From assembly GCF_014650595.1 (NCBI RefSeq), contig NZ_BMVG01000031.1, positions 1-64,000 of the forward strand: 64,000 nt of DNA, in the 5' to 3' direction. The stretch is from Streptomyces alanosinicus. GTDB lineage: Bacteria > Actinomycetota > Actinomycetes > Streptomycetales > Streptomycetaceae. The stretch's first letter is position 1. The number at the start of each line of letters is the position of its first letter. The notes below the pieces were generated by a model. The model was not told where the DNA came from. It ran no database searches and saw only the letters and a program-made list of their open reading frames with translations. A program made the translations under genes and the position numbers. Positions 15,201 to 56,770 of the stretch are shown piece after piece.

Positions 15201-15246
15201 GCGTACCCGGCCCCGCCCCGCCGCATCCCGCCACACACCGCTCCGG

Positions 15247-37447: not shown

Positions 37448-38038
37448 TCAGAGGGCGGTGTCGCCGAGCCAGCTGAGCTTGGACCGGACGTCGGCAGCGG
37501 CACGCGACCGGGGTGCCTCGCCGGGGACGGGGGTGCCGACGTTCAGGTAGCCGAGCAGTTGCTCTGCGTCGCCGACGCCGAGGTGCTTGCGGACCTGCGG
37601 CGCATCCGGGTAGGGCCCGCCGTACCAGACACCGCCCCAGCCGCGGGCGTCGAGGAGCAGCAGCAGGGTGGTGGCCATCGCGGACGTCGCGGCCAGTTGC
37701 TCCCAGCGCGGGATGGCCGGAAGGTCGCGGGGCTGGAAGACGAGGGCGAGCATCAGCGGGGCACGCAGGTGTTTGGCGGCGGTCCTCTTGGCCAGGTCGG
37801 CGGTGGGCGCGGCCTCGGCCGCAGCTTCGCCGAGCCGGACGCGGGCGTTGCCGCAGATCGCGATCAGACGCCAGGGGCGCAGCTGGCCGTGGTCGGGTGC
37901 GGTGGCCGCGGCTGCCAGTAGGTCGAGGAGTTCGTCTGGGCCAGGAGCTGGCGCGGTGAGGCGGACGGTACTGCGCCGGGAGCGTATCGCCGTCTCGGCG
38001 TCGCCCGCGGCGGCCCGTGCGGCAGGGACGGTGGTCAT
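37448..38038 (-). CDS. Nitroreductase-family flavoprotein
   Basis: 196 residues, FMN-dependent nitroreductase fold: SRRSTVRLTAPAPGPDELLDLL with the phosphate-binding RRS at residues 21-23, APDHGQLRPWRLIAI, and the glycine-rich GWGGVWYGGPYPD. Reaction unknown; family members reduce nitro groups, dehalogenate or dehydrogenate peptide-derived rings. ATG overlaps the antiporter stop (ATGA). It is the last gene of the minus-strand run that starts with the repeat peptide, so it may belong to that pathway. Confidence 0.85.
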   Translation of the reverse strand: MTTVPAARAAAGDAETAIRSRRSTVRLTAPAPGPDELLDLLAAAATAPDHGQLRPWRLIAICGNARVRLGEAAAEAAPTADLAKRTAAKHLRAPLMLALVFQPRDLPAIPRWEQLAATSAMATTLLLLLDARGWGGVWYGGPYPDAPQVRKHLGVGDAEQLLGYLNVGTPVPGEAPRSRAAADVRSKLSWLGDTAL

Positions 38039-39315
38039 CGGGTCGCTCCCGGTGTGTTGGGCAGCGCGGTGACCGGCACCCCGGCGGGGGACGGGGCATT
38101 GAGGTCGGGGGCGTTGCGGGTGAGGCGGTCGAGCAGGGGCGCGGTGGCGGCGGTGGTCACGACGGCCATGACGACCATGATCGTGAACAGGTTTGCGGAG
38201 ATGACTCCGAGCTGGAGGCCGATGCCGAGGACGACGATCTCGGTGATCCCGCGGCAGTTCATCAGGGTGCCCAGCAATGCGGACCACCGCCAGTCGCAGC
38301 CGGCGAGCCTGGCTGCTCCGGCGGCGCCGACCCACTTGCCCATCACGGCGACGGCCAGGACGAGTGCGGCCCACCCCCATTGGCCGGCGGGGAGGGCGGC
38401 GAGGTCGGTGTGCAGACCGGTGTCGACGAAGAAGAGCGGCAGCAGCACCGGGACGACCACCGCCTGGAGGCGAGCAGCGCTGCGTTCGACGGTCGGCACC
38501 CCGCGCGGCACGGTCGCGCCGACCAGGAACGCGCCGATCGCGGGGTGGACGCCGATCCGGTCGGTGGCGCACGCGGCCAGGAGCAGCTCGGTGACCAGCA
38601 GCACCGTCACCAGGTCGTCGGAGGTGCGGGCGGCGCGCTCCAGCGTCCGCTTCACGACGGGGCGCGCCGCGGCTAACGCGGCGGTGAGGGCGGCGGTCAG
38701 GGCAAGGGCGGTGAGCGCATCCATCGGGGAGCCGGCCGTGGCCAGGGAGGTGACCGCTATAAGCAGGCACCAGGCGAGGGCGTCGTCGGTGGCCGCGCAC
38801 GCGAGCGCGAAGGTGCCCAGGCGGGTGGTAGCCAGGCCCCGGTCGGTGAGGATCCGCGCGAGGACAGGGAAGGCGGTGATGGACAGAGCGGTGCCGGCGA
38901 ACAGCACGAACGGCAGTTGCTCCACGCCGGGAGGCGCGAGGGCCGGGTACATCGCGAGCGCGAGGGCGGCGCCGAGCGCGAGGGGCAGCAGGATGCTGCC
39001 AGCGGCTACGGAGGCGACGGCGCGGCGGGTGGCGCGCAAGGCGCCCAGGTCGAGATTGAGGCCGATTAGGAAGAGGAAGACGAGCAGGGCGAGGTTGCCG
39101 AGCACGGAGGTGTAGGGCAGGACGGCGGGCGGCAGCAGGAAGTGCTGGACGCCGGGGGCGAGCCAGCCGAGGAGGGAGGGGCCGAGGAGGATGCCGACGG
39201 CCATCTCGCCGATGACGGGCGGCTGGCCGAGGCGGCGGGCGGCCCAGCCGCCGGCCTGGCAGGCCAGCACCACGGCGGGAACGGCGACGAGGACGAGTGA
39301 GAGAGGACTGGACAA
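38035..39315 (-). CDS. Cation:proton antiporter (CPA2 family)
   Basis: 426 residues with about 12 membrane helices. GEMAVGILLGPSLLGWL and LLVFLFLIGLNLD are typical of Na+/H+ exchanger domains, and ATDDALAWCLL has the conserved Asp pair of the CPA2 ion site. No C-terminal TrkA domain. The TTG start has GGAGG at 9 nt. In the context of the peptide cluster it could balance ions or export a cationic product; this is inference, since no ABC exporter is present. Confidence 0.88.
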   Translation of the reverse strand: MSSPLSLVLVAVPAVVLACQAGGWAARRLGQPPVIGEMAVGILLGPSLLGWLAPGVQHFLLPPAVLPYTSVLGNLALLVFLFLIGLNLDLGALRATRRAVASVAAGSILLPLALGAALALAMYPALAPPGVEQLPFVLFAGTALSITAFPVLARILTDRGLATTRLGTFALACAATDDALAWCLLIAVTSLATAGSPMDALTALALTAALTAALAAARPVVKRTLERAARTSDDLVTVLLVTELLLAACATDRIGVHPAIGAFLVGATVPRGVPTVERSAARLQAVVVPVLLPLFFVDTGLHTDLAALPAGQWGWAALVLAVAVMGKWVGAAGAARLAGCDWRWSALLGTLMNCRGITEIVVLGIGLQLGVISANLFTIMVVMAVVTTAATAPLLDRLTRNAPDLNAPSPAGVPVTALPNTPGATR

Positions 39316-39438: not shown

Positions 39439-40311
39439 TCAGGTGCGCAGCAGGGGCAGGGTGGTGCAGCGCAGGGAGCCGGGGATGCGGGTGACCTCGC
39501 AGTAGTCGACGGTTAGGACCTCGAGTCCGCGGGCGGCCAGGGCGGCGGCGATGCGGTCGCTTCCGGCGGCGACCACGATCGTGGCGGGGGCGATGGCCAG
39601 GACGTTGACCTGGACCGCGAGGGCTTCGGTGTCGGTGACCGGGAGGATGTCGTCGAAGTGGGCGTCGAACCAGCGGTTCTGGTCGGCGGTGAACACCTCG
39701 CGGTGGATGAGGGCGGTGCTCGGCGCGACCACGGCGAGGTGGTCGTCGAGGTGCACGATCCCCTTGACCGCGAAGTGCACGGGGATGACCTCGCGGTCGA
39801 CGCGGTGCCGGACGAGGGCCTCCTGGAGGGCTGCCGCACCGTCGGGGCTGGTCTCCTCGCTCAGGCCGACGAGGACGCGTCCTGTGTCGGGGAGCAGGAC
39901 GTCACCGCCCTCGATCGTGCCGCGCTCCAGGTCGACGGGCCGCAGTCCGAGCGCGGGGTCGGTGAGGGCGTCGGTCTCGGGAAGGCGGTGCGCTGAGTTC
40001 AGGCGAGCCCGGACCAGGATGTGGTCGACGACGAAGGCGATGTCGCGGGGGTAGTGCTGGGCGGAGCAGCCCGGCGCCGCGGGGAGCAGGACTACCTCGG
40101 TGGCGCGATCGCGCAACAGGCCGATCAGCTGGTCCTGTTGCGCGCGGACGGCGGCGGGATCGTAGAAGGTCCAGGTGCTGGTGGCTTGCTGGCGGGCGAG
40201 GACGGGGTGAACGCCGGGGCCGGTCAGGGGGCGGGTGAAGTCGCCAGCGTGACGCATGGCGACGCGGCGCAGGGTTCCGTACTCGGTGGCGACATGGGTG
40301 GCGGTGGGCAC
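39439..40311 (-). CDS. Arginine deiminase / DDAH-like guanidine hydrolase
   Basis: 290 residues of the guanidine-modifying superfamily (ADI, DDAH, amidinotransferases). The conserved substrate Glu-Gly-Gly-Asp is seen in TIEGGDVLLPD (about residues 133-143), the catalytic His in GIVHLDDHLAVV (about 188-199), and the nucleophilic Cys in SLRCTTLPL (about residue 282). YPRDIAFVVD also matches DDAH/ADI enzymes. The expected reaction is hydrolysis of a guanidino group, giving citrulline or ornithine-type products. GTG 40311 follows CGGAGGACCC. One of two guanidine enzymes in this cluster. Confidence 0.85.
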   Translation of the reverse strand: MPTATHVATEYGTLRRVAMRHAGDFTRPLTGPGVHPVLARQQATSTWTFYDPAAVRAQQDQLIGLLRDRATEVVLLPAAPGCSAQHYPRDIAFVVDHILVRARLNSAHRLPETDALTDPALGLRPVDLERGTIEGGDVLLPDTGRVLVGLSEETSPDGAAALQEALVRHRVDREVIPVHFAVKGIVHLDDHLAVVAPSTALIHREVFTADQNRWFDAHFDDILPVTDTEALAVQVNVLAIAPATIVVAAGSDRIAAALAARGLEVLTVDYCEVTRIPGSLRCTTLPLLRT

Positions 40312-40437
40312 GGGTCCTCCGGGGCGGTCGGTGCGGGCGCTGGTGGTGCGGGGTGGAGGCGGCCCCAGCACAGCCCGGCGACAGGGTCCTGCGGGGGCGC
40401 ACGCTGTCAGGTGCGCCTGCCCCCGCAGGGGCCGGGG

Positions 40438-40872
40438 TCAGCCAGCCGCCGCGTGCCGGTTGTCGTACTGGGCGAGCCAGGGGGCGGCCTCGGCGAGCCG
40501 ATTCAGGTTGGTGGGTACCAGGGCCAGGTCGGTGGCGCAGTGGTCGAGGGCGGTGGCGAGGATGCCGATGACCATGCCGTCACCGTAGTCGCGGGCGGCG
40601 ATGTGGCTGCCGCAGGCGCCGCAGAAGCCGCGAGCGGTCTTGCCGGGGTGGGTGTCGAACCAGGTCGGCTCGGCACCGGTCCACTTCAGCCCTGCCATCG
40701 CGAAGCCGAGCCACCACTGGAACGGCGCGCCGGAGCGCTTCGAGCAGTCCTTGCAGGCGCAGATGTGCGGGTCGTCCACCGGGCCGGTGACGGTGAAGCG
40801 GATCTTCCCGCACAGGCAGCCGCCGGAGCGGACCTCGGGGCCGGAGCCGGTGGCGGCGACAGTCTCGGACAC
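40438..40872 (-). CDS. GFA/CENP-V-fold zinc protein
   Basis: 144 residues with the Mss4-like GFA fold: GGCLCGKIRFTV, CACKDCSKRSGAPF and FCGACGSHI provide the Cys sets for two zinc ions. The family is named for a glutathione-dependent formaldehyde-activating role, but members bind diverse small thiols and ligands. GTG 40872 shares one base with the stop of the preceding diiron gene (TAGTG), tight coupling that ties it to the peptide pathway. A role in handling formaldehyde released by an N-demethylating or oxidising step is an idea, not a demonstration. Confidence 0.85.
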   Translation of the reverse strand: MSETVAATGSGPEVRSGGCLCGKIRFTVTGPVDDPHICACKDCSKRSGAPFQWWLGFAMAGLKWTGAEPTWFDTHPGKTARGFCGACGSHIAARDYGDGMVIGILATALDHCATDLALVPTNLNRLAEAAPWLAQYDNRHAAAG

Positions 40873-41735
40873 TAGTTCAATTCCCTTGCGCGATAGGCTA
40901 GTTGGGTCCACCAGTGTGCCATCGCGTTGAAGATCTGAAGGAAGCCCTCAGAGGCCTGCGGCAGGTCGAGGTGGAAGAGCTCACTCTGACGAATGAACCG
41001 GGCCAGGCCCTCGATGTGCGCCTCTTCCACGCTCATGCCGCCGACCTGCGCGGCCTCGTGGCCTTCGTCGAGGTGGAGCCGGTAGTAGTAGTCCAGGTTC
41101 TTCAGCTCCGCGCCACTGGCCTGGATGGTCAGCTCGCCGTAACGGTCGGTGATCTCCCTCAGGATCTCCGTCTCAGCGACGGCGACGCCCTCGGTGGCGT
41201 AGTAGCCGCCGGCGATGAGTCCTGTCATGTGGGAGTTCACGAGGACCTGGTGCTGGAGGACCAGCTTGGCGGTCTCGTCGGCGGGGACGTGGCCGTTGAC
41301 GAGCAGGCCGAGGTCGGCGAGCAGCGCGCGGGTGTAGAGGATGTAGTGGGCGGGGACCTTGCCGGGCTCGCCGCCCTCCTCCAGGAAGTTGCGGTCGAAC
41401 TCGTGCCCGAGGGCGGGGCAGGAGCCGTAGACCTGCTGGGCGGCGAGGCGCAGGAACTGGGCATTGTGTCGGGCGAAGACGGCGAGCTCGGCGATGTACA
41501 TGCGGGCCTGGGCCACGGTGAGAGCGCCGGGGTCGACCAGGGCGCGGATCTGCCGGTATACCGTGTCGATCATGGGCTTCAGGTGCTTGTCGACGAGGTC
41601 GTCACCGCTGTTGCGGGTGCCCTGGAGGGTGGCGTGGATGTAGCTGCGGGTCTCCGGGTTCGCTCGCAGATACGCCTCGACGAGGCTGGTGCCGCTGAGG
41701 CTGTCGAGCGTGGGGGCGGGTGCGGTGGTGGTCAC
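40872..41735 (-). CDS. Haem-oxygenase-like diiron oxygenase family protein
   Basis: 287 residues of the iron-containing redox enzyme (CADD/TenA-like HDO) family. Likely iron ligands are the Glu and His of AELAVFARHNAQF (about residues 88-96), the Glu of YYATEGVAVAE (about 200) and the H-x-D-E-x-H group of YYRLHLDEGHE (about 235-243). HDO enzymes cleave or oxidise amino-acid and fatty-acid side chains (for example making azetidines, nitroso groups or alkenes). GTG 41735 overlaps the stop of the cupin gene (GTGA). Confidence 0.82.
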   Translation of the reverse strand: MTTTAPAPTLDSLSGTSLVEAYLRANPETRSYIHATLQGTRNSGDDLVDKHLKPMIDTVYRQIRALVDPGALTVAQARMYIAELAVFARHNAQFLRLAAQQVYGSCPALGHEFDRNFLEEGGEPGKVPAHYILYTRALLADLGLLVNGHVPADETAKLVLQHQVLVNSHMTGLIAGGYYATEGVAVAETEILREITDRYGELTIQASGAELKNLDYYYRLHLDEGHEAAQVGGMSVEEAHIEGLARFIRQSELFHLDLPQASEGFLQIFNAMAHWWTQLAYRARELN

Positions 41736-43018
41736 TCGGTCTCCTCGGGCGCAGTGGTGACGGTCAGGCCGCCGGTGGCGCCGAGCGTGCGGATCGCGGC
41801 GATCACCTTCGGGTCGTCGGGAAGGGTGGTCGGGCCGTCGTTTAGGCGCTCGACCAGGCCGGGGGTGAGGACGGCGGGGTCGGCCGCCGTCTCGCAGCTG
41901 CGGAGGAACGCCTGCTTGCCGGTGACCATCAGCCGGTAGGGGGCGCGGACCGCGACGCTCGTGCCGGGCGCGAGGTCGGTGACCGCGAACGCGGCGGCAG
42001 CCTCGTCGCGGGCGAGGTCGTGGTCGGCCTGCTGCCAGCCGCCGTTGCTGAGGACGGTGTACCAGCGCTGGTGGGCGTGCTGCTGTGCGGCGCCCGGCGC
42101 CTGCTGGGCGGCGGTGGTGAACGCGGCGGCGGTCACCGTGCTCAGGCGGCCGGCGAGCTCGCCGGGGCCGGCGGTCAGCGGCTGCATCGGGGACGGCCTG
42201 CCGGCGTCGGTGTCCGGCTCGCTGGCCAGCAGGGCACCGAGCAGGTCCGGTGCGATCCAGGCCCGGGCGATCGCGGCGTCGGGGAGGGTGTAGAGGCAGA
42301 TGGCGACGGAGACGGAGAACTCGCTCTGCCGGCCGACGTGGAAGACCCGCTCGGGCAGGAACAGCGCGTCGCCGGGCTCCAGGGCGAAGTGCTCGCCGTG
42401 CTCCAGGAGCCACGTGTAGTCGCCGTACAGCGGGTCGCTGCCTCCGGTGAGCTTGCGGTACTCCTCGGCCGGCCAGCAGTAGAAGTCCTTGGTGCCGGGC
42501 CCGTAGTGGGTGAGGAACGCGTTCTCGTAGCCCTCGTGGCAGCCAAAGGCGGTCCCGCTGTAGTTGCCGACGAAGGCGACCAGCTCGGCGCCGCCGGCCG
42601 GGAGGCCCCAGCCGTCGATCAGCGCGCCGACGAACTCGCCCAGGCCCGCGGCCAGCGGCTCGCTGACGCTCTCCAGTGTGTTGAGGACCAGGCTGAACCG
42701 CTCGGCGCCGACCTGCTCCTGCATCCACGCAGGAAAGCCGCCGCCCTCGTGCCAGCCGTCGGCGGCCAGCACCTTGTCCACCAGGTCGGGGCGGTGCTCC
42801 TCGCCCACGTACACCCTGGCGTTCGCGGTGATCTCCACCCCGGTGGCGTGGGCACGGCGGATCGCGGCGAAGCCGTCCAGGACGGCGGCCGTGTTCGCCG
42901 CCGAGGCGGGGACGACGCCCTTGAACAGGTACGGGCGCCTCATGCCGGCGGTCTTCTCGGGCAGGATGTCGGTCCAGAACGCGCGGGGCGGAGGCCACGC
43001 TCCGGTGCTGCTGCTCAT
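41732..43018 (-). CDS. Cupin/JmjC-like (ROXA-type) oxygenase
   Basis: 428 residues. The central part (about residues 165-260) has the double-stranded beta-helix of JmjC-like proteins: NYSGTAFGCHEGYENAF with a likely first His and acidic ligand, THYGPGTKDFYCW, then ALEPGDALFLPERVFHVG with the distal His (FHVG). A C-terminal wHTH-like dimerisation/accessory region (about 290-420) follows, as in ribosomal oxygenases. ROXA-type enzymes hydroxylate Arg or His side chains in proteins, which makes a peptide Arg or Lys a reasonable substrate here. It lies between the amidinotransferase and the HDO gene in one operon. Confidence 0.8.
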   Translation of the reverse strand: MSSSTGAWPPPRAFWTDILPEKTAGMRRPYLFKGVVPASAANTAAVLDGFAAIRRAHATGVEITANARVYVGEEHRPDLVDKVLAADGWHEGGGFPAWMQEQVGAERFSLVLNTLESVSEPLAAGLGEFVGALIDGWGLPAGGAELVAFVGNYSGTAFGCHEGYENAFLTHYGPGTKDFYCWPAEEYRKLTGGSDPLYGDYTWLLEHGEHFALEPGDALFLPERVFHVGRQSEFSVSVAICLYTLPDAAIARAWIAPDLLGALLASEPDTDAGRPSPMQPLTAGPGELAGRLSTVTAAAFTTAAQQAPGAAQQHAHQRWYTVLSNGGWQQADHDLARDEAAAAFAVTDLAPGTSVAVRAPYRLMVTGKQAFLRSCETAADPAVLTPGLVERLNDGPTTLPDDPKVIAAIRTLGATGGLTVTTAPEETE

Positions 43019-43091: not shown

Positions 43092-44225
43092 TCAGGTCGC
43101 GAGGTAGTCCTCGAGACCGCCGTCGCGGACGGTGTCGAGGGTGAAACAGTGGTGCCCGCCGCCGAACAGGCGCCGGTGCCGGTGCCGGACAGGGACGACG
43201 GTGAAGCCTCGCTGCTCCAGCAGCTCGATCAGCTCCGGGTAGAGCGAGTTGACGACCACCGTGTTCTCGTCGATCGACAGGACGTTGATATCGATGTACC
43301 GGGACGCGGTGGGGATCACGAACCCGAGCGCGTCGTAGTCCTGCTCGGCCACAGCGCTCGGCGGCGGGTAGATCGCCTCCCAGCCGCGCATTGCCTCCGG
43401 CAGGAACTGCAGGTACTGCGGGGATCGCAGCAGCATCAGGCCCGGGCGCAGCGGCACGACGATGGAGTCGACGTGGTTGTCGGCGATCCCCGGCAGCCGG
43501 TGCAGGCGCAGGTCAGGGAAGTTGCGGGCCAGCCACCGGTAGGCCAGCTGGTGGTTGCGGTTGGCGACGTTGCACAGCACGTCGCGGCCCAAGCGGATGC
43601 ACTGCGCGCCGTCGAAGACCATCTCCAGGCCCAGGCCGTCGATCGGCAGGGCGGCCTCGTCGGCCATCGCCGCAGTGACGTCGATGCCCTGTCGGTCGAA
43701 GTAGGCGGTGTCGAGGGAGCCGGCGGCGAGAGCGGGGCGCGGCATGGACAGCCAGTTCGCGCCCTGCTCGAAGTAGCGGGTGAAGTGGGGCTTGAGGTGG
43801 TCGTTCTCGAAGATCCGGCCGCGGATGTGTGGGGCGGTCTCCACGATCGTCTCCCCGAGGATGATCGCGTTGTCGCGGACGTTCAGCGGTGGTGTCGCTC
43901 CGCTGCTCCACCAGGGGGAGGACACCTCGGCGTCCTTGCCCGGAGATGCGGGGCGCAGCACGCGCACCCCGCAGCCGGCCAAGGCGTCGGCGAAGCCGGC
44001 GACGTCCTCGTTCAGCTCGTCGACGATCTGCTGCGGGATCGGCATCTGCCGCTGTCCGTCGGCCAGGTGGGGGGCGACGTTCTCGAAGTAGAACAGCCGC
44101 CAGGTCGGGTCGGCGTCGTGCGCGGTGTAGTGGTCGGCGCGGCCGACGACGACCTCGCGCAACCGGGTGAAGTCGTCGAAGCTGTGCACGCTTGCGGTGG
44201 GCAGGTCGAGCTGGGGATGGGTCAT
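43092..44225 (-). CDS. Amidinotransferase (glycine amidinotransferase-like)
   Basis: 377 residues of the Arg:X amidinotransferase family (AGAT, StrB1, AmtA). The opening SFDDFTRLREVVVGRA is typical; the Asp is in MVFDGAQCIRLGRD, the His in DNHVDSIVVPL and the nucleophilic Cys in GGGHHCFTLDT (about residue 360). It moves an amidino group from arginine to a primary amine. A Lys side chain of the repeat peptide is one candidate acceptor (to homoarginine), or Arg of the peptide could be the donor. ATG 44225 follows GAGGAGG. Confidence 0.88.
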   Translation of the reverse strand: MTHPQLDLPTASVHSFDDFTRLREVVVGRADHYTAHDADPTWRLFYFENVAPHLADGQRQMPIPQQIVDELNEDVAGFADALAGCGVRVLRPASPGKDAEVSSPWWSSGATPPLNVRDNAIILGETIVETAPHIRGRIFENDHLKPHFTRYFEQGANWLSMPRPALAAGSLDTAYFDRQGIDVTAAMADEAALPIDGLGLEMVFDGAQCIRLGRDVLCNVANRNHQLAYRWLARNFPDLRLHRLPGIADNHVDSIVVPLRPGLMLLRSPQYLQFLPEAMRGWEAIYPPPSAVAEQDYDALGFVIPTASRYIDINVLSIDENTVVVNSLYPELIELLEQRGFTVVPVRHRHRRLFGGGHHCFTLDTVRDGGLEDYLAT

Positions 44226-44334: not shown

Positions 44335-45414
44335 TCAGACGGCCGCGTGTTCGGCGGCCACGGCCGCGGGGGGTGCGGGCTTGGAGACGAGGCGGGCGAT
44401 GACGTCCTCGATCACGCACGGCACCTCGGGGGTGGAACGGCGGCGGAAGAAATAGCCGGAGCACCACGGCACCTCGTCCCAGCGCTCCAGGCACTCGGAG
44501 AGGAGGGCGGTGGCCTCGGGCAGGCGCCGCCAGGGGATCTTGGGGCACCAGTGGTGCACCGGGTGGAACATGTCGTCGAGGTGGCCGCCGAGCAGGTGCC
44601 GGGTGAGCCAGTGCGAGGACCAGCCGCGGGTCTGCAGCAACACGTCGTCGCGGTTCTCGATCAGCCCGGCGTGGTTGCCGAGGTCGGTGATCCAGGTGAC
44701 CGCTGGCCGCACGAACACCAGCGGGACCAGCCAGTACAGCAGCAGGTCGCGGAGGACGCCGAAGGACCAGCACGTGACGGCGACGCCCGCCCACAGCACC
44801 GCGCGGGCGGCTGGCGCCCACCGGCTCTCCCTCGGGCCGCGGGTCAGCAGCACCCGCAGCGCCGACGTCGGCAGCCGCCACAGCGCGGCCCTGACAAGCA
44901 CCCGCAGCACAAACCCGGTCCGGCTCATCGGCACCCGAACGGTGTGAAGGCGCCCGGCCTGGTACGACTGGAACATCGGATCGGCTCCGGTGCCCAGCTG
45001 CGCGTGGTGCACCCCGTGGGTGACCCGGTAGGGCCGAAGCCCCTCGCCGAGCATGCCGGTCAGCAGGTACCCCACCAGGCGGTTGCCGCGCGCGGTGGCC
45101 AGCAGTTTCGCGTGGACGCACTCGTGCGCCAGGTTCGACAGGTGCCGCTGGCGCACCCCGATGTACAGCACCGCGAGCAGCGGCCCGACGAGGTGCCCGG
45201 CCAGCGCGCCGACGAGCGCCGCCACGACGATCGCGCCGACATCGCACGCGACGTCCCGCAGGCCGACACTCGGAGCGCCGCACAAGCCCTCCAGCTTGCC
45301 GATCAGCTCCGGCCCCAGCGCCTGCCGGACCGGACCGGACGCGCCGGTCGAGTGCCGGGTGCGCCTCGGTGTCTTCTCGCGCCGGCGTACCGACCACCGG
45401 CTGGGCCTGCCCAT
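44335..45414 (-). CDS. Fatty-acid-desaturase-family membrane protein
   Basis: 359 residues with the three His boxes of membrane diiron desaturases/hydroxylases: HECVH (about residue 98), HGVHH (about 134) and HPVHH (about 287), between paired membrane helices (about 55-95, 195-240). Start Met at 45414 is chosen because GGAGGAG precedes it; upstream in-frame Met codons lack ribosome binding sites and would run into the palindrome at 45467. First enzyme gene after the repeat peptide. In this setting it may oxidise a peptide or amino-acid side chain rather than a lipid. Confidence 0.85.
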   Translation of the reverse strand: MGRPSRWSVRRREKTPRRTRHSTGASGPVRQALGPELIGKLEGLCGAPSVGLRDVACDVGAIVVAALVGALAGHLVGPLLAVLYIGVRQRHLSNLAHECVHAKLLATARGNRLVGYLLTGMLGEGLRPYRVTHGVHHAQLGTGADPMFQSYQAGRLHTVRVPMSRTGFVLRVLVRAALWRLPTSALRVLLTRGPRESRWAPAARAVLWAGVAVTCWSFGVLRDLLLYWLVPLVFVRPAVTWITDLGNHAGLIENRDDVLLQTRGWSSHWLTRHLLGGHLDDMFHPVHHWCPKIPWRRLPEATALLSECLERWDEVPWCSGYFFRRRSTPEVPCVIEDVIARLVSKPAPPAAVAAEHAAV

Positions 45415-45466
45415 CTGCTCTCCTCCGGACATCACTGGACTGGAACCGGACATTGGCCTTTCGTGA

Positions 45467-45508
45467 GCTGCTGCCGGTGGGCGGGGCGCCCCGCTCACCG
45501 GCAGCAGC
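45467..45508 (-). promoter_or_regulatory. Strong palindrome after the repeat-peptide gene
   Basis: A 42-bp near-perfect palindrome: 13-bp outer stem (GCTGCTGCCGGTG at 45467-45479 pairing with 45496-45508), one mismatch, then an inner GCGGGG/CCCCGC stem. It begins 26 nt after the peptide stop in the direction of transcription and lies before the desaturase start. Likely a partial terminator or RNA-stabilising hairpin that keeps peptide expression above that of the enzymes. Confidence 0.7.
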
Positions 45509-45534
45509 ACGTCAGCCGATGAGGACGATCGGGG

Positions 45535-45669
45535 TCAGGCGGTGGCGCCGGGGCGCATGCCGAGCTTGACGCCCGGGCGCATGCCGAGCTTGACGGCGAC
45601 CGCGCCGGGGCGCATGCCGAGCTTGACGCCCTCGCCCGGGCGCATTCCGAGCTTCAGCTTCTGGTCCAT
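45535..45669 (-). CDS. Repeat peptide with four KLGMRPG units, candidate RiPP precursor
   Basis: 44 residues: MDQKL, then KLGMRPG four times (residues 6-12, 16-22, 27-33, 35-41) separated by EGV, AVAV and V, ending ATA. The units are identical in protein but differ at silent positions (GGA/GGC, CCG/CCC), so the amino-acid sequence appears to be under selection. GAGAGGAG lies 6 nt before the ATG. There is almost no leader, unlike most RiPP precursors. It heads the minus-strand cluster of two guanidine-modifying enzymes, several iron oxygenases and a nitroreductase. I know no named family with this repeat. Each unit holds one Lys, one Arg and one Met; it could be cut into four similar products. 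Confidence 0.85.
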   Translation of the reverse strand: MDQKLKLGMRPGEGVKLGMRPGAVAVKLGMRPGVKLGMRPGATA

Positions 45670-46105
45670 GTGTTCTCCTCTCGGCCGCGGGCATGCTGCG
45701 GCCGCGCGTGGTGAATCGGATGGTCGAGCCAGAGATGAGCGCGGCTCGAAGGAGCCGGCCAGGCGCTGCGCCGAGGGCGCTGGTGAAGCTGTCGCGCCGA
45801 GTGGCCGTGCCATCACGTTAGGGCCGTGCCAAGGGCAGCAGCAACGGGTTGTGACGTTGCGCCAGGTGCGCCGGGGCGTTGCGCATCCGTTGCGTCCATA
45901 CTGCCTCTGGCCTGGGGAAACGCTCATGCGGGCCGCTGGAATGCCGCCACTCGCCGAGCGCCAGCCCGCTCGGCCGGTGCGCGCGGCCTTCTGCGCTGCG
46001 TCGGCGTGCGGCTACCTTGAGGCGCTCCGAGGAGGGCGCGCCGCCCAAGCCGTACTCCGGTTCGCAAACTTCCTTTTTCCTTGCCTGAGTTGAGAGGAGG
46101 CACGC
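45670..46105. promoter_or_regulatory. Divergent control region of the repeat-peptide cluster
   Basis: 436 bp between the peptide gene (minus) and the synthetase-like gene (plus). It holds three GTTGCG copies (45856-45861, 45878-45884, 45889-45894), the second extended to GTTGCGC, in 40 bp, plus a related GGTTGTGAC just before. These are candidate regulator sites serving both directions. Nothing else recognisable; no good consensus promoter is evident. Confidence 0.5.
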
Positions 46106-46999
46106 ATGTCCGCGCTGTCCGGTCCCATCCGTGCCAAAGCCCACGTGCTGCACGGCCTGCGGACCCTGCTGCACGTGGAGGGCTTCACTGAGCTCGTCAC
46201 CCCCGTCGCCCGCCGCTCCGACCTCGGGCCCGGCCGCCGCGCACCCGCCGGCCTCCACGAAGGCCGGTACCTGCGCGCGATGATCGGCCCGGCGCTGCGC
46301 GTCAACGTGAGCACCGACCTCCCACGGGTGTACGAGATCGGCCCGTGCTTTCGACCCGAGCCCCCGGACGCCCTCCACGCTGGCGAATTCACGATGCTCG
46401 ACTTGTACGCGGCGCACCTCGGCTTCGAGGACCTGATCGACCTCGCCTGGCGCCTGGTCGGGCCGCACCTGCCCTCCTACGCCCCCGAGCGGCTCTCGAT
46501 CGCCGACCACGTCCACGACGAGTTCGGCATCGACCTGCGCACCGAGTCCATCGGCGGCCTGCACTCGCGCATGGCCGTCCGGATCGGCTCCGACGCGGGC
46601 GAGCCGTTCCGCGACGTCCTCGGCCGCTACATCGCCCTCGAACTCGAGGCTGGCACCGTGGGCCGCGCGGTGTTCCTGACCGACTACCCGACCGGCGGCG
46701 ACGAGCCATGCGCCCGCCTGGCCGCCGGCACCACCGCCGTCCTGGAACGGTTCGAGCTGATCGTCGACGGCATCGAACTCGTCCACGGATACACCGACGA
46801 AACGGACCGGAATGCCTTCACCGAACGCGCGAAGGCCGTCGGTCTCTACGACGACGAGCAGCAGCTCGCCCAGGAAGCCGTCGAGGCCGGGGCCGTACCT
46901 GCTGACACCGCGGGCCTCGGCATCGGCATCGAGCGGCTGTGCGCCGCCTCCGCCGGGCTGCGCGACATCACGCCATTCCTCCAGTCCCCCCAGTTCTGA
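46106..46999 (+). CDS. Free-standing class II aminoacyl-tRNA-synthetase-like protein (EpmA/PoxA type)
   Basis: 297 residues corresponding to the catalytic core of LysRS-like class II synthetases without the anticodon-binding domain. Motif 2 is YEIGPCFRPEPP followed by HAGEFTMLDLY (about residues 75-98), and motif 3 is GLGIGIERLC (about 272-281). The closest functional relative by size and layout is EpmA/PoxA, which attaches beta-lysine to a Lys of elongation factor P at a KPG turn. The peptide in this cluster has repeated RPG turns and Lys residues, so aminoacylation of the peptide is a fair hypothesis. RBS GAGAGGAGG. Divergent from the peptide gene and followed 26 bp later by the TauD-like gene. 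Confidence 0.88.
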   Translation: MSALSGPIRAKAHVLHGLRTLLHVEGFTELVTPVARRSDLGPGRRAPAGLHEGRYLRAMIGPALRVNVSTDLPRVYEIGPCFRPEPPDALHAGEFTMLDLYAAHLGFEDLIDLAWRLVGPHLPSYAPERLSIADHVHDEFGIDLRTESIGGLHSRMAVRIGSDAGEPFRDVLGRYIALELEAGTVGRAVFLTDYPTGGDEPCARLAAGTTAVLERFELIVDGIELVHGYTDETDRNAFTERAKAVGLYDDEQQLAQEAVEAGAVPADTAGLGIGIERLCAASAGLRDITPFLQSPQF

Positions 47000-47025: not shown

Positions 47026-47868
47026 ATGGACCTTGCGATCATCCCGCTGCCCGGCGGATTCGGCGCCCGCGTCGAGACCGACCTCGCCCGCACGACCGGC
47101 TCCGCCGCAGCACGCGTTCTCACCGATGCCCTGCACCACCACCGCGTGCTGGTCCTGCCCGGCCAGCACCTCAACCACACCGACCTGGTCGCCGCCGCCT
47201 CCCTGTTCGGCGCCGTCGACACCGCCACCGACCGCCGCTACACGGTCCCCGGCTTCCCCGGCCTCACCATCGTCTCCAACATCCACCAGGACGGCACACC
47301 GATCGGCATCTACGACGGCGACCAGGAGGAGGAGTGGCACGCCGACAACTCCTTCAAGCCTCGGCTGACCGCCGCCACCCTGCTGTACTCGGTCATCACC
47401 CCAGGCGCGGGCGGCGAGACCCGCTTCGCCGACGCCACCCGCGCCTACGCCGGCCTTCCTCCGGCGATGCGCCAGCGGACCGCGGAGATGCGCGCGGTGC
47501 ACTCCGCCGAGCATCTGGGCACCTTACAGAGCCAGGCCAGCGGCGGGCAGTCGTCGGTGGCGGCCGGAAGTCTCGCCGGCCACCCGGAGGTCGAGCACCC
47601 GCTCGTCCTGACGCACCCTGTCACCGGCGCCCGTTCGCTGCTGCTCGGTTCCATGGTGATCCGCGGCATCACCGGCCTGTCCCAACAGGACAGCCGTGGC
47701 ATGCTCGACGAACTGCTGCGGCACACGACCAGCGAGCGATACGTCTACAGCCACTGCTGGAGACAGGGCGACCTGGTCGTATGGGACAACCTCGCCACAC
47801 TCCACACCGCCTCCCCGTGCGACAGCTCCCGCAACCGCCGGCTGCTGTACCGCGCCGTCGTCCGATAG
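47026..47868 (+). CDS. TauD/TfdA-like 2-oxoglutarate/Fe(II) dioxygenase
   Basis: 280 residues. The metal site is H-A-D in EEEWHADNSF (about residues 104-113) with the distal His in ATLHTASPCD (about 258-267) and the 2-oxoglutarate-binding Arg in RNRRLLYR (about 270-277). Reaction would be C-H hydroxylation or desaturation. ATG 47026 follows CGGAGG, 26 bp after the synthetase-like gene, so the two are co-transcribed. It adds a further oxygenase class to the peptide cluster. Confidence 0.88.
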   Translation: MDLAIIPLPGGFGARVETDLARTTGSAAARVLTDALHHHRVLVLPGQHLNHTDLVAAASLFGAVDTATDRRYTVPGFPGLTIVSNIHQDGTPIGIYDGDQEEEWHADNSFKPRLTAATLLYSVITPGAGGETRFADATRAYAGLPPAMRQRTAEMRAVHSAEHLGTLQSQASGGQSSVAAGSLAGHPEVEHPLVLTHPVTGARSLLLGSMVIRGITGLSQQDSRGMLDELLRHTTSERYVYSHCWRQGDLVVWDNLATLHTASPCDSSRNRRLLYRAVVR

Positions 47869-47950
47869 CCGAAGACCTCGCGTCACACCGCCGGATGACC
47901 TGCGGTCGGAACGCGAAGGCCGCCCCCGTAACCGCCCTTAGGTTTTGCCC

Positions 47951-49180
47951 ATGACCGTAAAGGTTCCTCTGAAAGAGTCCGCACTCAACGCCGAGCGCAT
48001 CGCTCGTATCGGCCGCGAAGTCCACAGTGTTTGCCCCGAGTTCGATGCCGACGGCTTCGCCCGGTCGGTCATGGCCGACCTTCCCGGGCTGGAGCTGAAG
48101 GACCGGATCACCCGCACCAGCGAGGGCCTGCACGCCTACCTTCCGGTCACCGGCCCGGAGGCGCTCGAGGTCCTGCTGCGCTCGCTGCCGCCGACTCCCG
48201 AAGCGGCCGGCGTGACCACCGACTTCGGCCTGCACATCTACTCGCCCCACTCCGACTACGTCTCCCGCTACCTGCGCACAGCCGAGCACCTGGACCAGGC
48301 CCTGGCCGCTCTCGCGCGCCTGACCCGGTACTTCTCGGCCGAGGTCGCAGCGAGGCACTTTCTGGCCAGCTTCCCCGACGAGACGATGAAGGCCGTCCAG
48401 ACGTGGTCTCGCGACGAGGACCATCGGGTCCGCCGACTGGCGAGCGAAGCAACCCGTCCCCGCCTGCCCTGGGCCCCACGAATCGCCCTGCCCACCGGTG
48501 CGGCGCTGCCCGTCCTTGACCAGCTCTACACCGACACCAGTTCCTATGTGCGCACCTCGGTCGCCAACCATCTCCATGACCTCTCCACGGACCAGCCCGA
48601 ACTGGTGCTCGCCACCCTTCAGCGGTGGAAGGAGTCGGGCCGCGCCACCGGCCAGCACATGACGTTCATCGCCCGGGAGGCTCTGCGTAGCAGGCTGAAG
48701 AAGGGCTGGCCGGAGGCCTACGCGTTCCTTGGGTACGCGCACGATGCGCCGGTTGAGCTGACGCCCCTGACCATGGAGCGCAACCAGCTGTCCGACGGCG
48801 ACACCCTCAGCTTCTCCGCCGCTCTCACGAGCACCGCCCCGGGGCCGGTGCACGTGATGTTCGTGATCTCCACAACGACGCAAACCGGAAGGCCGCGCGA
48901 GAAGGCGTACTTCCTTCATCGCGGCACAACCGAGCCGGGCCGGGAACTGCACCTCGCCAAGAATCACGTGCTGCGCTCCACCGCTACGTGGAAGGTGTCT
49001 CCGGGCCCTACTCCATTGCCCTCCAGGTCAACGGTCGCCGCTTCCCTCCCGTCACCTTCACGGTCCTCAACGCCTGATTCCCACTCCGGCCGCTTCCTGA
49101 TCTCAAACCCCTGCCGCAGGACCGTCGCCGACATCCGCCGTGGGGTCGGTCAGCCCTGTCCGCTATCCCCACCTGACTGA
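47951..49180 (+). CDS. HEAT-repeat AlkD-like DNA alkylation repair protein, 3' frameshift
   Basis: As read, 409 residues. The N-terminal two thirds are an AlkD-type HEAT-like fold (SVMADLPGLELKDRITR, AARHFLASFPDETMKAV with WSRDEDHRVRRLASEATRP, the family's typical W-x-R-D/E helix; DTSSYVRTSVANHLHD). A C-terminal beta domain follows (LTPLTMERNQLSDGDTL). Near 49003 the natural frame changes: the alternative frame reads SGPYSIALQVNGRRFPPVTF to TGA at 49075-49077, whereas the annotated frame runs on into a Ser/Pro-rich tail to 49180. The last 30 residues are thus probably wrong or mutated; the HEAT part is intact. ATG 47951. Confidence 0.7.
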   Translation: MTVKVPLKESALNAERIARIGREVHSVCPEFDADGFARSVMADLPGLELKDRITRTSEGLHAYLPVTGPEALEVLLRSLPPTPEAAGVTTDFGLHIYSPHSDYVSRYLRTAEHLDQALAALARLTRYFSAEVAARHFLASFPDETMKAVQTWSRDEDHRVRRLASEATRPRLPWAPRIALPTGAALPVLDQLYTDTSSYVRTSVANHLHDLSTDQPELVLATLQRWKESGRATGQHMTFIAREALRSRLKKGWPEAYAFLGYAHDAPVELTPLTMERNQLSDGDTLSFSAALTSTAPGPVHVMFVISTTTQTGRPREKAYFLHRGTTEPGRELHLAKNHVLRSTATWKVSPGPTPLPSRSTVAASLPSPSRSSTPDSHSGRFLISNPCRRTVADIRRGVGQPCPLSPPD

Positions 49181-50394: not shown

Positions 50395-50814
50395 ATGACC
50401 AGCCCCACTCTGCGTGCCGTCGTGGTCGGCGAAAGCCTCAAGGCAGGTTCACTCCCTACGGCCTCCGCCGGCATGGAGGACCGCCGCTACCGGAGCCGGC
50501 TGGGCGACCAGACTGAGATCGAGATCATCGAGCTGACCGTGCCGGTGGAGCAGGCTGCGGCATTGGCGCTGGAGCTGTCCGCCGTGCTGAAGCCGCGGTT
50601 CTTCTACGCGCACCTGTGCGTGCGCGTCTGGGACCGCGACGTGCGCGAGAGCGGATATCCGCCGATGACCGTCTACCCGGCGGCAACGCCCGACGACCAG
50701 CTGCCGCCCGGCGACGTGCTCGACAAGCCCAGCGCACGGCTTGTCCTCCAGTGGCCGGAACGGACCCCCGCCGGCGCACTGAGCCTCTCGACCGCAGGGG
50801 GACAGCGTGCCTGA
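50395..50814 (+). CDS. Hypothetical protein
   Basis: 139 residues: VVVGESLKAGSL near the start, then IEIIELTVPVEQAAALALEL and RFFYAHLCVRVWDRDV. Mixed alpha/beta composition, no known motif. AAAGGA lies 13 nt before ATG 50395. It overlaps the PIG-L gene by 8 nt, so the two are co-translated and probably linked in function. Confidence 0.6.
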   Translation: MTSPTLRAVVVGESLKAGSLPTASAGMEDRRYRSRLGDQTEIEIIELTVPVEQAAALALELSAVLKPRFFYAHLCVRVWDRDVRESGYPPMTVYPAATPDDQLPPGDVLDKPSARLVLQWPERTPAGALSLSTAGGQRA

Positions 50815-51613
50815 CTCCGACGAGTTGATCCCCGAGACGGCGGCGTCCTCCACGATGCCGTCCCTGCTCGGCGTGTTCGCCCACCCCGACGACGAGAGCC
50901 TCCTCGCCGGCGGTGTCCTCGCCCAGCACGCCGCCGCGCACGCGCGCACCGCCGTCGTCACCATGACGTGGGCGCCCGACAGCCCGCGGGCTCCCGAACT
51001 CGCCGACGCCTTGCGGGCGCTCGGCGCGGGCGCCCCTCGCATGCTCGGATACGGCGATGCCCGCAACCCGCAGGCGGCTCCCGGCCGTCCCCGGCTCGTC
51101 GACGCACCGCTCGACGAGGTGGTCGCCGCCCTGGTCCAGCAGATCCGCTCGTTCCGCCCCGACATCGTGGTCACACACGACGCCCTGGGCCAGCTGACCG
51201 GTCACCCGGACCACCGCCGCACCCACCAGGCCGCTCTCCTCGCCGCTCAGGATGCGGGCCTCCCGCACCTTCACCCTGAAGCAGGTGAGCCCTGGCAACC
51301 TCGCGTCGTGTACTGCGCCACGCACCCCGAGTCCGGTGTCGGCGAACTCGGGCCGCTTCTGGAGGCCGTCGGCAAAGCCGTGCTCGCGGTGCCGGACGCG
51401 TACGCCACCACCACGGTCGACGTCACCCCCTGGGTCGACGTGAAGTGGGCGGCGATCCTCGCGCACCGCGGCGAAGTCGCACGCGAGCGGCCCCTGCCCG
51501 GCATCCTCGCCCGCCTTCCCGAAGCCGACCGCAACCGGATCATCCAGATCGAGCACTTCACCCGCCTCACCCCCGGCCCCGCAAAGGGCGACCCAGTCCA
51601 GCTGACCCACTGA
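50807..51613 (+). CDS. PIG-L/LmbE-family deacetylase
   Basis: 268 residues with the zinc motif AHPDDESLLAGG (about residues 25-36) and the second ligand in GHPDHRRTH (about 129-137), the pair typical of N-acetyl-sugar deacetylases such as MshB/Mca and antibiotic deacetylases. Also VVTHDALGQLTG before the second site. Probably removes an acetyl group from an N-acetylglucosamine conjugate; the substrate is not visible. GTG 50807, overlapping the upstream gene. Confidence 0.9.
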   Translation: MPDSDELIPETAASSTMPSLLGVFAHPDDESLLAGGVLAQHAAAHARTAVVTMTWAPDSPRAPELADALRALGAGAPRMLGYGDARNPQAAPGRPRLVDAPLDEVVAALVQQIRSFRPDIVVTHDALGQLTGHPDHRRTHQAALLAAQDAGLPHLHPEAGEPWQPRVVYCATHPESGVGELGPLLEAVGKAVLAVPDAYATTTVDVTPWVDVKWAAILAHRGEVARERPLPGILARLPEADRNRIIQIEHFTRLTPGPAKGDPVQLTH

Positions 51614-51680
51614 CACCTCGGCCCCGTGCCGACCGCCCTTTCACCGCGCCCACGAGCAAGCACCTACCCATCGGAGAGCG

Positions 51681-52610
51681 ATGACTACGACTTCTGCCCC
51701 CGACGAACGCCTCAGTGTGGCCAGGACATTGCGGCTGGCGGTCGCGCAGAGCACGGTGCCGGAGGATCCCACTGATCGAGGAGCACTGCGGGCGGCCGGG
51801 CAAGAGATCCGGGCCCTGATGGTCGAGGCCGCCGAGGCTGGTGCGCGGTTGGTGCAGTTCCCCGAGGGGGCGATCACCTACCCGAGCAAGCACGTAATGG
51901 CGGCGGGCCCGGCCGGCGAGCTGGTGCCGGCTGATTGGAGCCGTGCCGCGTGGGATGTGATGCGCGAGGAAGCGGAGTCGATCACCGCGCTGGCGGGAAA
52001 GCTCCGCTTGTGGACGGTGTTCGGATCGATCCACCCGCTCACACCGCCGAACCGACCGCACAACAGCCTCTACGTCGTCTCCGACCACGGCCAGCTGGTC
52101 GCACGGTACGACAAGAGGTTCCTGTCACACACCGAGGTGTCCTACTTGTACTCCCCAGGACACCAGCCGCTCGTCATCGAGGTGGACGGCATTCGGTTCG
52201 GCTTCGCGCTGTGCATCGAGGCCAACTTCCCGGAGGTGTTCGCCGAGTACGAGCGCTTGGACGTCGACTGCGTCCTGCTGTCGGTGATGGTCGACGACGC
52301 GCCCCGTGCCCGTGTCGCCCAGGCGTACGGGACGCTCTACAACTACTGGCTCGGCTACTCCATCCCGGCCCAGTTCAGCGCTACGGTGCCGTCCGGGGTC
52401 GTGGCGCCCGGCGGAAGGTGGCTGGCGCGCTGTCCCGCGAACGGACAACCTGCCCTCGCGATCGCGGACATCGACCTCGACTCGCAGGACGAAGACATCG
52501 ACATGGCCGTTCGCTGCGCCCGCCCGTGGCGGCGCACTGCTCGATCTGGACTCTACGAGGAGCGGACCCCCGTCGGGGATCCGCGCAGCGATGCACGCAC
52601 AGCGTTCTGA
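51681..52610 (+). CDS. Carbon-nitrogen hydrolase (nitrilase superfamily)
   Basis: 309 residues with the Glu-Lys-Cys triad: LVQFPEGAITYPS (Glu, about residue 60), ARYDKRFLS (Lys, about 144) and FALCIEANFPEV (Cys, about 177). An amidase or carbamoylase-type hydrolase acting on non-peptide C-N bonds. CATCGGAGAGCG lies before ATG 51681. 67 bp after the PIG-L gene and perhaps in the same unit. Confidence 0.9.
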   Translation: MTTTSAPDERLSVARTLRLAVAQSTVPEDPTDRGALRAAGQEIRALMVEAAEAGARLVQFPEGAITYPSKHVMAAGPAGELVPADWSRAAWDVMREEAESITALAGKLRLWTVFGSIHPLTPPNRPHNSLYVVSDHGQLVARYDKRFLSHTEVSYLYSPGHQPLVIEVDGIRFGFALCIEANFPEVFAEYERLDVDCVLLSVMVDDAPRARVAQAYGTLYNYWLGYSIPAQFSATVPSGVVAPGGRWLARCPANGQPALAIADIDLDSQDEDIDMAVRCARPWRRTARSGLYEERTPVGDPRSDARTAF

Positions 52611-55710: not shown

Positions 55711-56742
55711 GTGCTGAGCGTAGTGAATGCCGATGGAACGACCGAGGCTGGCTCCCTGATCGACGACATCGTCCGCGAGGGCGCGAGGCGGATGCTGGCC
55801 GCCGCGCTGGAGGCCGAAGTCGACGCCTATATAGCCGAGTTGACCGACAAGCGTGATGAGCGCGGGCATCGTCTGGTGGTCCGAAACGGCTATCACCAGC
55901 CTCGGAAGGTCACGACCGCGGCCGGGTCGGTCGAGGTGAAAGCCCCGCGGGTGAACGACAAGCGCGTCGACGAGACGACGGGTGAGCGCAAGCGATTCTC
56001 CTCGGCGATCCTGCCGCCATGGTGCCGCAAGTCCCCGAAGATCAGTGAGGTGCTGCCGCTGCTCTACCTCCACGGCCTGTCGTCCGGCGATTTCGTAGCC
56101 GCACTGGAGCAGTTTCTGGGCAGCTCCGCCGGGCTCTCACCAGCGACCGTGACACGGCTGACGGCCCAGTGGCAGGCGGACCACACCGCGTTCGGCGAGC
56201 GTGATCTGTCGGGCAGCGACTACGTCTACGTGTGGGCTGACGGCATCCACCTGCGCATACGCTTGCGGGAGGCGAAGTCGTGCGTCCTGGTGCTGATGGG
56301 GGTGCGCGCGGACGGCACCAAAGAGCTGATCGCCATGGCCGACGGCTACCGCGAATCCGCCGACTCCTGGGCCGACTTGCTGCGGGACTGCGCACGCCGG
56401 GGCATGCGTGCTCCCGTCCTCGCGGTCGGCGACGGCGCCCTGGGCTTTTGGAAGTCCCTGGCCGAAGTGTTCCCCGAAGCCCGCCATCAGAGGTGCTGGG
56501 TTCACAAGACCGCCAACGTTGCAAACGCCCTGCCGAAATCTGCGCAGCCCGGCGCGAAGAAGGCCCTGCAGGAGATCTACAACGCCGAGGACCGCGACCA
56601 CGCGCTCAATGCCATCACGGCGTTCGAGACGGCATACGGTGCGAAGTTCCCCAAGGCCGTCAAGAAGGTCACCGACGGCGTGGACGAGCTGCTGGCGTTC
56701 TACGGCTTCCCCGCCGAGCACTGGATTCACCTGCGGACCACG
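55711..56742 (+). pseudogene. IS256-family transposase, 5' part (split by IS110)
   Basis: 344 codons of a mutator-type (IS256) transposase: RRMLAAALEAEVDAYI, GYHQPRKV, then WADGIHLRIRL with the first catalytic Asp and AVGDGALGFWKSLAEVFP with the second (about residue 240), and HQRCWVHKTANV. The protein ends at HLRTT, just before the family's N-P-I-E-S-T-F motif, where an IS110-family element is inserted. The rest is found at 58249-58470. GTG 55711 follows GGGAAGG. Read onward into the insertion it would give a chimeric, inactive protein. Confidence 0.9.
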
Positions 56743-56770
56743 GATGAAATCGGCAAGCCCTGCGGCGGGT

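Follow-up and report, generated by a model that had tools for sequence, protein, structure and literature searches.

The 64,000-nucleotide stretch of Streptomyces alanosinicus DNA analysed here (contig NZ_BMVG01000031.1, positions 1 to 64,000; below, the window) encodes a 44-residue peptide that is made up almost entirely of four KLGMRPG repeats and is accompanied by a set of putative modifying enzymes. This peptide is conserved and is inherited together with the enzymes, which can be assigned to families. The best reading of its anatomy, as far as it can be judged from sequence, is that it represents a new class of ribosomally synthesized and post-translationally modified peptides (RiPPs) modified at Arg and possibly at Lys. 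On balance we favour a fuller proposal, in which a multicore, nearly leaderless and Arg-centred precursor gives rise to a product that alkylates DNA and the DNA glycosylase AlkC protects the producer. Within this proposal it is inferred that the peptide is the substrate, which residues are changed, in what order the enzymes act and that the product alkylates DNA.

45535..45669, minus strand: predicted precursor peptide of 44 aa with four KLGMRPG repeats and hardly any leader (translation; orthologs in 13 other species; unit statistics)
45675..45679, minus strand: AGGAG ribosome binding site, separated from the ATG by 5 nt (sequence; purine-rich site before the inspected orthologs)

Translated on the minus strand, positions 45535-45669 give MDQKLKLGMRPGEGVKLGMRPGAVAVKLGMRPGVKLGMRPGATA, which comprises the lead-in MDQKL, four perfect copies of KLGMRPG and almost nothing else. 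A reading on the plus strand was rejected, as that strand yields SGGGAGAHAELDAR... instead. The longest mechanically called open reading frame (ORF) at the locus is 130 aa and exceeds the 44-aa reading. The 44-aa start is likely the true one, because the translation upstream of the ATG is far less similar between species than the repeats and because a purine-rich box precedes this start, as it also does in those orthologs whose upstream DNA was inspected. The copies in the window differ silently from each other (GGA/GGC and CCG/CCC), and across 13 orthologous peptides the codon differences between units of the same peptide amount to 227 silent versus 86 amino-acid-changing ones. Tandem pairs of [KQ]xGxRP[GD] within 60 aa occurred in none of 40 mononucleotide shuffles of the window, which contained 73 single units in total, and tandem units were found at none of 30 control loci around other amidinotransferase genes (573,947 bases); a chance origin of the repeat was rejected on these grounds. 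No Pfam or NCBIfam model matches the peptide, and the motif strings of the repeat are absent from the literature searched, which consisted of open-licence papers, so that the printed record may differ. An earlier note on this DNA had claimed 44 residues with four perfect units, a ribosome binding site of their own, silent differences between the copies and an unfamiliar RiPP class; the first three are borne out by the translation (on the minus strand), the AGGAG box and the codon counts, and the last fits the lack of matches to models and motif strings. Since the gene has only 44 codons and matches neither model collection, standard genome mining can easily overlook it, and it is the repeat pattern together with the enzyme set that makes it findable.

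The unit was compared across 14 peptides with four to eight units each, 69 in total, using Arg-Pro as the only seed. The position two residues before Arg-Pro (-2) is Gly in all 69 units, whereas position -4 is Lys in 66, Gln in two and Thr in one. Position -1 is occupied by Met (53), Val (14), Thr (1) or Leu (1), and the residue following Pro is either Asp (43) or Gly (26). All 69 Arg residues of the 14 peptides are confined to the repeat units and 66 of their 69 Lys residues lie within KxGxRP, and Cys is absent from the 13 peptides counted. In one cluster (G269), Gln replaces Lys in half of the units. The constancy of the 69 Arg-Pro units and the silent excess are what would be expected of RiPP core residues under purifying selection. 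Eleven of the 14 peptides have their first unit at residue 5 or 6, and in the other three it starts at residues 15, 25 and 25; the two longest lead-ins, of 24 residues, include a degenerate LKLGTT unit. The near-absence of a leader that the earlier note had described therefore holds for the window and for 11 of the 14 peptides, and fails for the three with 14, 24 and 24 preceding residues. In the mechanism that we propose, each repeat, (L/V)-K-x-G-(M/V)-R-P-(G/D), would serve as recognition site and core at once, so that one precursor would supply four to eight equivalents.

Enzyme-led searches recovered the repeat peptide beside the same enzymes in 14 species: that of the window, G069, Kitasatospora sp. 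MBT63, Peterkaempfera griseoplana, G195, Streptomyces sp. AA1529, G044, S. violens, S. phaeofaciens, Amycolatopsis saalfeldensis, Nocardia sp. CY41, N. vaccinii, N. asiatica and G350. Among 297 genomes of the family searched with the amidinotransferase of the cluster, there were seven close full-length matches including the own genome, the other six at 71-86% identity, and all seven genomes contain ten core genes, repeat peptide included. Amidinotransferase matches occur in 84 of the 297 genomes, and of the sites examined only these seven full-length ones, of at least 71% identity, bear the cluster; 30 other sites (all of at most 53% identity, in stretches of usually 20 kb) contained neither cluster nor tandem units. 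A wide scan of approximately 85,000 species genomes with the alignment of the heme-oxygenase-like oxidase (HDO) yielded nine loci, of which three came from genomes found before; this count depends on two exact peptide patterns and is consequently too low. All nine loci combine the repeat peptide with genes for the desaturase, amidinotransferase, JmjC protein, HDO, GFA protein and synthetase. A profile search of the class with the JmjC protein found it in three of 296 genomes (the own genome, G044 and G350). G350 was located by this profile before the peptide was sought, and a peptide with five units was then found there along with the remaining core genes; among 35 genomes of its family, HDO was detected in G350 only. 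The lowest amidinotransferase identity among the first 13 species is 59%. The gene order of Nocardia sp. CY41 and N. asiatica is JmjC-HDO-peptide-desaturase-amidinotransferase-synthetase-GFA-TauD-AlkC-DDAH, and as this order differs, conservation of the set is more than conservation of one piece of DNA. The contig of N. vaccinii ends inside the GFA gene, so that TauD, AlkC and DDAH are out of view there. A gene-encoded precursor that is conserved beside modifying enzymes, as is typical of RiPPs, is thus present in 14 of 14 species, and the co-occurrence on which the earlier note had made its proposal depend was found in every cluster-bearing species. Its suggestion of selection on the peptide agrees with the retention of Gly, Arg, Pro and mostly Lys over the 69 units and with the rearranged order in Nocardia, and the position that it gave for the gene, at the head of an enzyme run, is correct for the window.

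Two further amidinotransferase observations were made during the survey. G293 has a lone 52-aa amidinotransferase fragment (L114, 9890-10045; approximately 67-69% identical), possibly a relic, with no peptide or other cluster gene within 20 kb. G191 and G133 each have two amidinotransferase genes within 7 kb (L042 and L043), which are approximately 46-51% identical to the cluster enzyme and apparently belong to a different, unrelated cluster type.

A short gene that has its own ribosome binding site and stands first in the run, as it does in the window and the non-Nocardia clusters, might also encode an unmodified signal, a bacteriocin or a regulatory leader peptide, while the enzymes make something else. 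We regard this as very improbable: the 227 silent against 86 changing codon differences and the four to eight near-identical units per peptide argue against it, and in Nocardia the gene lies inside the enzyme run and not at its head.

Several enzymes of the cluster come from families whose members act on Arg or peptidyl Arg, namely GntB, YcfD, amidinotransferase and DDAH. The first group of genes comprises three of these and a TauD-type oxygenase:

44335..45510, minus strand: fatty-acid-desaturase-fold protein, best curated relative GntB (PF00487, E 6.4e-26; NF041365, E 1.8e-29)
43092..44225, minus strand: amidinotransferase of the StrB1/AGAT family (phmmer to 1bwd, E 1.3e-40)
39439..40371, minus strand: DDAH/arginine-deiminase-like guanidine hydrolase (PF02274, E 1e-20; DDAH models, E 3e-16, below cut-offs)
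47026..47868, plus strand: TauD-family Fe(II)/2-oxoglutarate (2OG) oxygenase (PF02668, E 2.4e-54)

Invariant residues were counted over 12 or 13 extracted orthologs per family. In the desaturase-fold protein all three His boxes are invariant in 13 of 13 orthologs, as are D205, H251 and C360 of the amidinotransferase, which we take to be the AGAT triad; the latter protein (43092..44225) has no Pfam match. H207 and C302 of the DDAH-like protein and seven Cys of the GFA protein are invariant in 12 of 12 sequences each, and the synthetase retains the motif 2 and motif 3 arginines in all extracted orthologs. Because these site residues are invariant, the five proteins look active. The HxD motif and the distal His of TauD are present in 11 of 12 extracted sequences, the twelfth being an 18-aa extraction artefact, and several TauD orthologs start near residue 30 of the long ORF. 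An Arg-centred pathway appears best supported, because the unit varies least at Arg-Pro, several of the enzyme families act on Arg or guanidine groups, and thiovarsolin provides a precedent. In such a pathway the Arg of each unit, and possibly the Lys, would be oxidised by the GntB-like, YcfD-fold, HDO and TauD proteins, the amidinotransferase and the DDAH-like hydrolase would perform guanidine chemistry, and ordinary peptidases would separate the copies. The last step is proposed because no protease was recognised among the conserved cluster genes.

A second group of genes encodes an unusual oxygenase, the HDO and a zinc protein:

41732..43018, minus strand: JmjC/ribosomal-oxygenase-fold protein, HxG replacing HxD (PF08007, below cut-off here, above in Nocardia sp. 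CY41)
40872..41735, minus strand: DUF3865 heme-oxygenase-like oxidase, HDO (PF12981, E 1.4e-11, above cut-off; 3b5o, E 1.8e-10)
40438..40911, minus strand: GFA-fold zinc protein of the formaldehyde-activating family (PF04828, E 2.5e-17)

The predicted model of the JmjC protein (mean predicted local distance difference test, pLDDT, 65) has the ribosomal-oxygenase fold and is nearest to YcfD (Foldseek 4liv, E 1.9e-10; VIA, Z 13.1, root mean square deviation 3.3 over 176 residues). Its C-terminal residues 341-420, which are predicted fairly well (block pLDDT 78-93), may form a winged helix resembling that of YcfD. In an alignment to E. coli RoxA, H125-L-D127 pairs with H161-E-G163 and H187 with H227, so that the HxD...H iron ligands of YcfD/RoxA appear here as H161-E-G163...H227. 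Gly163 is found in 13 of 13 orthologs and also in G350. Loss of the iron-ligand Asp is a mark of Fe/2OG halogenases, in which it is replaced by Gly or Ala, as it is here by Gly163. HxG need not imply halogenation, however, because an Asp-to-Gly variant of FIH reportedly retains hydroxylase activity. The HDO belongs to its family by an above-cut-off match to PF12981 and by its similarity to the CADD-like protein 3b5o. Its residues E121, H131, E183, H222, D224 and H227 are invariant in 13 of 13 sequences, and its model (pLDDT 49.5) is too poor for a check of the ligands; the alpha-3 spacing HxDxxH is presumably atypical for a diiron site. The GTG start of the HDO gene overlaps the TGA stop of the JmjC gene in the window (GTGA), and the two genes are adjacent in 14 of 14 clusters. 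The GFA gene is present in all 14 clusters (in N. vaccinii only its start, before the contig end) and follows the HDO gene except in Nocardia.

These three genes could also belong to a Lys-directed pathway. The core Lys would be halogenated or hydroxylated by the HxG JmjC protein, its side chain would be cleaved by the HDO in the manner of BesC on 4-chlorolysine, and the formaldehyde set free would be captured by the GFA protein; each repeat would end up with an unsaturated or chlorinated residue. We consider this doubtful, although it deserves some weight. It would fit the change from HxD to HxG in every ortholog and in G350, the constant pairing of the JmjC and HDO genes, the GFA gene in all 14 clusters and the retention of Lys in 66 of the 69 units. 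According to a review, BesC frees formaldehyde and ammonia from 4-Cl-Lys (PMC13108848). On the other hand, the Lys position is taken by Gln in two units and Thr in one, and the nearest fold is that of YcfD, an arginine hydroxylase. Halogenases are generally of other folds, the FIH variant is said still to hydroxylate, and the HDO has the presumably atypical ligand spacing described above.

The cluster further contains a stand-alone ligase gene, which occurs in 14 of 14 clusters and in the window lies divergently on the plus strand with those for TauD and AlkC:

46106..46999, plus strand: EpmA/LysRS-like stand-alone class II synthetase (PF00152, E 1.3e-23; genX/EpmA, E 2.3e-21, below cut-off)

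With 76.6 bits the protein remains far below the EpmA equivalog cut-off of 286.9 bits. Four positions differ from those aligned in LysRS (E278 to D, N424 to H, F426 to Y and E428 to D), and the position of E240 is Gly or Ala, according to the alignment used; we take these five to be lysine-contact residues of LysRS. The synthetase may use an amino acid other than lysine, or another carboxylate. In the Arg-centred pathway it may acylate Lys or load another amino acid. Alternatively, the repeats might be a scaffold or carrier that holds amino acids during the assembly of a small molecule, with the ligase charging Lys and the finished piece being released. The conserved ligase with its presumably changed lysine pocket is consistent with this, and one reactive Lys per unit would suit a multi-site carrier. 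It is nevertheless an unlikely explanation, as Gly at -2 is present in all Arg-Pro units and Lys is not, the G269 peptide has Gln for Lys in half of its units, and a Lys carrier would leave the confinement of every Arg to the units unexplained.

The last gene of the conserved set leads to the proposed activity of the product:

47945..49180, plus strand: AlkC alkylpurine DNA glycosylase, presumed self-resistance (phmmer to 5vi0, E 1.2e-53)

The homology is near full length (residues 8-354 of the protein against residues 11-347 of 369 in 5vi0). AlkC is encoded in 13 of 14 clusters, and the fourteenth (N. vaccinii) is truncated by a contig end. Relatives of AlkC are found in 49 of the 297 family genomes, those of at least 54% identity only in the seven cluster genomes and five others, and in four of these five the gene is broken or partial. 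No second AlkC was found in the own genome. The pattern looks like that of a resistance gene which persists for a time after the cluster has decayed. In G272 (L097, 8967-10453), a cluster-type AlkC of 76% identity has one in-frame stop and is adjoined by a partial TauD, while the rest of the cluster is missing from the 20 kb stretch; the two genes are evidently a decayed remnant of the same cluster. The AlkC gene is split in G036 (L099) and represented by partial matches in G085 and G193 (L100, L101), and the other cluster genes are absent there.

AlkC was reportedly first described as a 3-methyladenine glycosylase. Because such an enzyme belongs to the cluster, the simplest inference, from gene content alone, suggests that the pathway product alkylates DNA bases. 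In the proposed mechanism the product, or a part released from it, would do so and AlkC would repair the DNA of the producer. The reported specificity fits small alkyl lesions and would also suit a different route, in which oxidation of the Arg guanidine by the HDO and the cupin-fold JmjC protein gives rise to an N-nitroso or similar group and, from it, the DNA-alkylating agent. This SznF-like route we likewise hold to be improbable. SznF joins HDO hydroxylation of the arginine guanidine to a cupin rearrangement (PMC13108848). In the cluster, by contrast, the HDO is not fused to a SznF-type cupin but encoded by a separate gene, its cupin-fold partner has the YcfD fold, and no methyltransferase was recognised in the conserved gene set.

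Several points weigh against the favoured, Arg-centred proposal. A leader or a RiPP recognition element (RRE) is usual in RiPPs, if not strictly defining; here 11 of 14 peptides have no leader and the contig (C31) gave no PqqD profile match, hence no RRE was found, so that recognition of a leaderless peptide is unexplained. Lys is nearly as conserved as Arg, so that either may be the target residue, and the Arg-handling families may act on free arginine instead of the peptide. AlkC could repair damage caused by a by-product and not by the product. One genome (G177, L098) has an intact cluster-type AlkC alone, without other cluster genes, and in N. asiatica the AlkC gene is split over two frames (L075, 15834-16896) within an otherwise complete cluster, where it may be dispensable and decaying unless the assembly is in error. 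Finally, the tandem pattern of the unit taken alone does not demonstrate co-occurrence. Searched at DNA level as GMRP units, it occurs in 10 of 297 genomes compared with 13 of 297 for a reversed control; six of the ten are cluster genomes and the other four represent background level, and G044, itself a cluster genome, escaped the pattern owing to its codon choice. The evidence for co-occurrence is that of the enzyme-led searches.

If the favoured proposal is true, the peptide would stand for a RiPP class whose recognition bypasses the leader, and its pathway would supply peptide engineering with guanidine enzymes and with oxidases that act on peptides. It would moreover tie a ribosomal peptide pathway to self-resistance by a DNA glycosylase. 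The HxG oxygenase allows one to ask whether the YcfD fold has evolved halogenation. A bolder version, which we put forward tentatively and consider rather unlikely as a whole, would combine a leaderless multicore RiPP leading to a DNA-alkylating genotoxin, AlkC as guard, a YcfD-fold peptide halogenase and an EpmA-like ligase attaching an amino acid to the Lys of the core; a genotoxin would then be reached by a ribosomal route.

Outside the core set lies one further gene that may contribute to the pathway:

38035..39315, minus strand: Na+/H+ exchanger-type membrane protein (PF00999, E 2.3e-53)

It is possibly an exporter, and the gene is found near the cluster in G069, G207, G034, G195 and S. 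phaeofaciens; S. violens has it as well, at 36%. A 438-aa ORF without Pfam match (36076-37392, plus strand) is conserved beside the cluster at 8 of the 12 other loci, none of them in Nocardia; it may be an accessory gene or else a shadow ORF. Downstream, at 50807-52610 (plus strand), PIG-L deacetylase and nitrilase-family genes have no counterpart in the other cluster stretches (two queries). The window further contains a perfect GCACCCA repeat (15246-15292; 6.7 copies of the 7-bp unit) and, at 55711-56967 (plus strand), an ORF that we read as an IS256-type transposase; the cluster may be located in a mobile neighbourhood.

Among known systems, the desaturase-fold protein has its best curated relative in GntB, the L-arginine gamma-hydroxylase of guanitoxin biosynthesis (NF041365). 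It is no equivalog, reaching 103 bits against a cut-off of 380, and the substrate of the Gnt enzyme is L-arginine, whereas here it would presumably be peptidyl. The synthetase resembles EpmA, the EF-P lysine ligase, in its stand-alone class II catalytic core with the motif 2 and 3 arginines, and differs from it in score and at the presumed lysine-contact positions. YcfD/RoxA, by annotation the arginine 3-hydroxylase of ribosomal protein L16 and thus a modifier of Arg in a protein, is the nearest fold to the JmjC protein, yet identity is approximately 15% and its iron ligand Asp127 corresponds to the invariant Gly. In the 4-chlorolysine pathway an Fe/2OG protein without the Asp ligand (BesD) is likewise paired with an HDO (BesC), and release of formaldehyde would suit a GFA protein. 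BesD carries HxG in a fold different from that of the cluster JmjC protein, and the Bes substrate is free lysine. The open-licence literature contained no related paper on DUF3865 and no RiPP paper combining a heme-oxygenase-like protein, a desaturase and an Arg precursor peptide.

Self-resistance by DNA glycosylases in biosynthetic clusters is represented by AlkZ, YtkR2, TxnU2/U4 and LldU1/U5 (PMC9040887, PMC8934636, PMC8626424). As in these systems, a base-excision glycosylase for self-protection would be located inside the cluster; theirs are of the AlkD or AlkZ/YcaQ type, whereas that of the cluster is AlkC, which two of these papers use as a comparison enzyme (PMC9040887, PMC8934636).

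The thiovarsolin system of Streptomyces varsoviensis (VarA/VarY/VarT/VarO) shares further features with the cluster. Its description reports a repeat precursor that is cut to short peptides without a dedicated protease, a double bond in the Arg side chain that depends on the heme-oxygenase-like VarO, and an amidinotransferase, VarS, that is conserved yet dispensable for the compounds observed (PMC6511847). By the same description, the thioamide-forming YcaO and TfuA are required for thiovarsolin, a leader is predicted and the core is APR and not KxGxRP; the seven var genes that it names include no AlkC and no GntB-like, JmjC, GFA, DDAH-like or EpmA-like protein. The peptide in the window has almost no leader, and YcaO is encoded on contigs C54 and C5 of the genome and not on C31, for which reason membership in the thiovarsolin type was rejected. 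Both systems nevertheless have in common an Arg in each repeat core, a heme-oxygenase-like protein, an amidinotransferase and the lack of a recognised dedicated protease; the cluster proteins correspond to VarO and VarS at the level of broad family.
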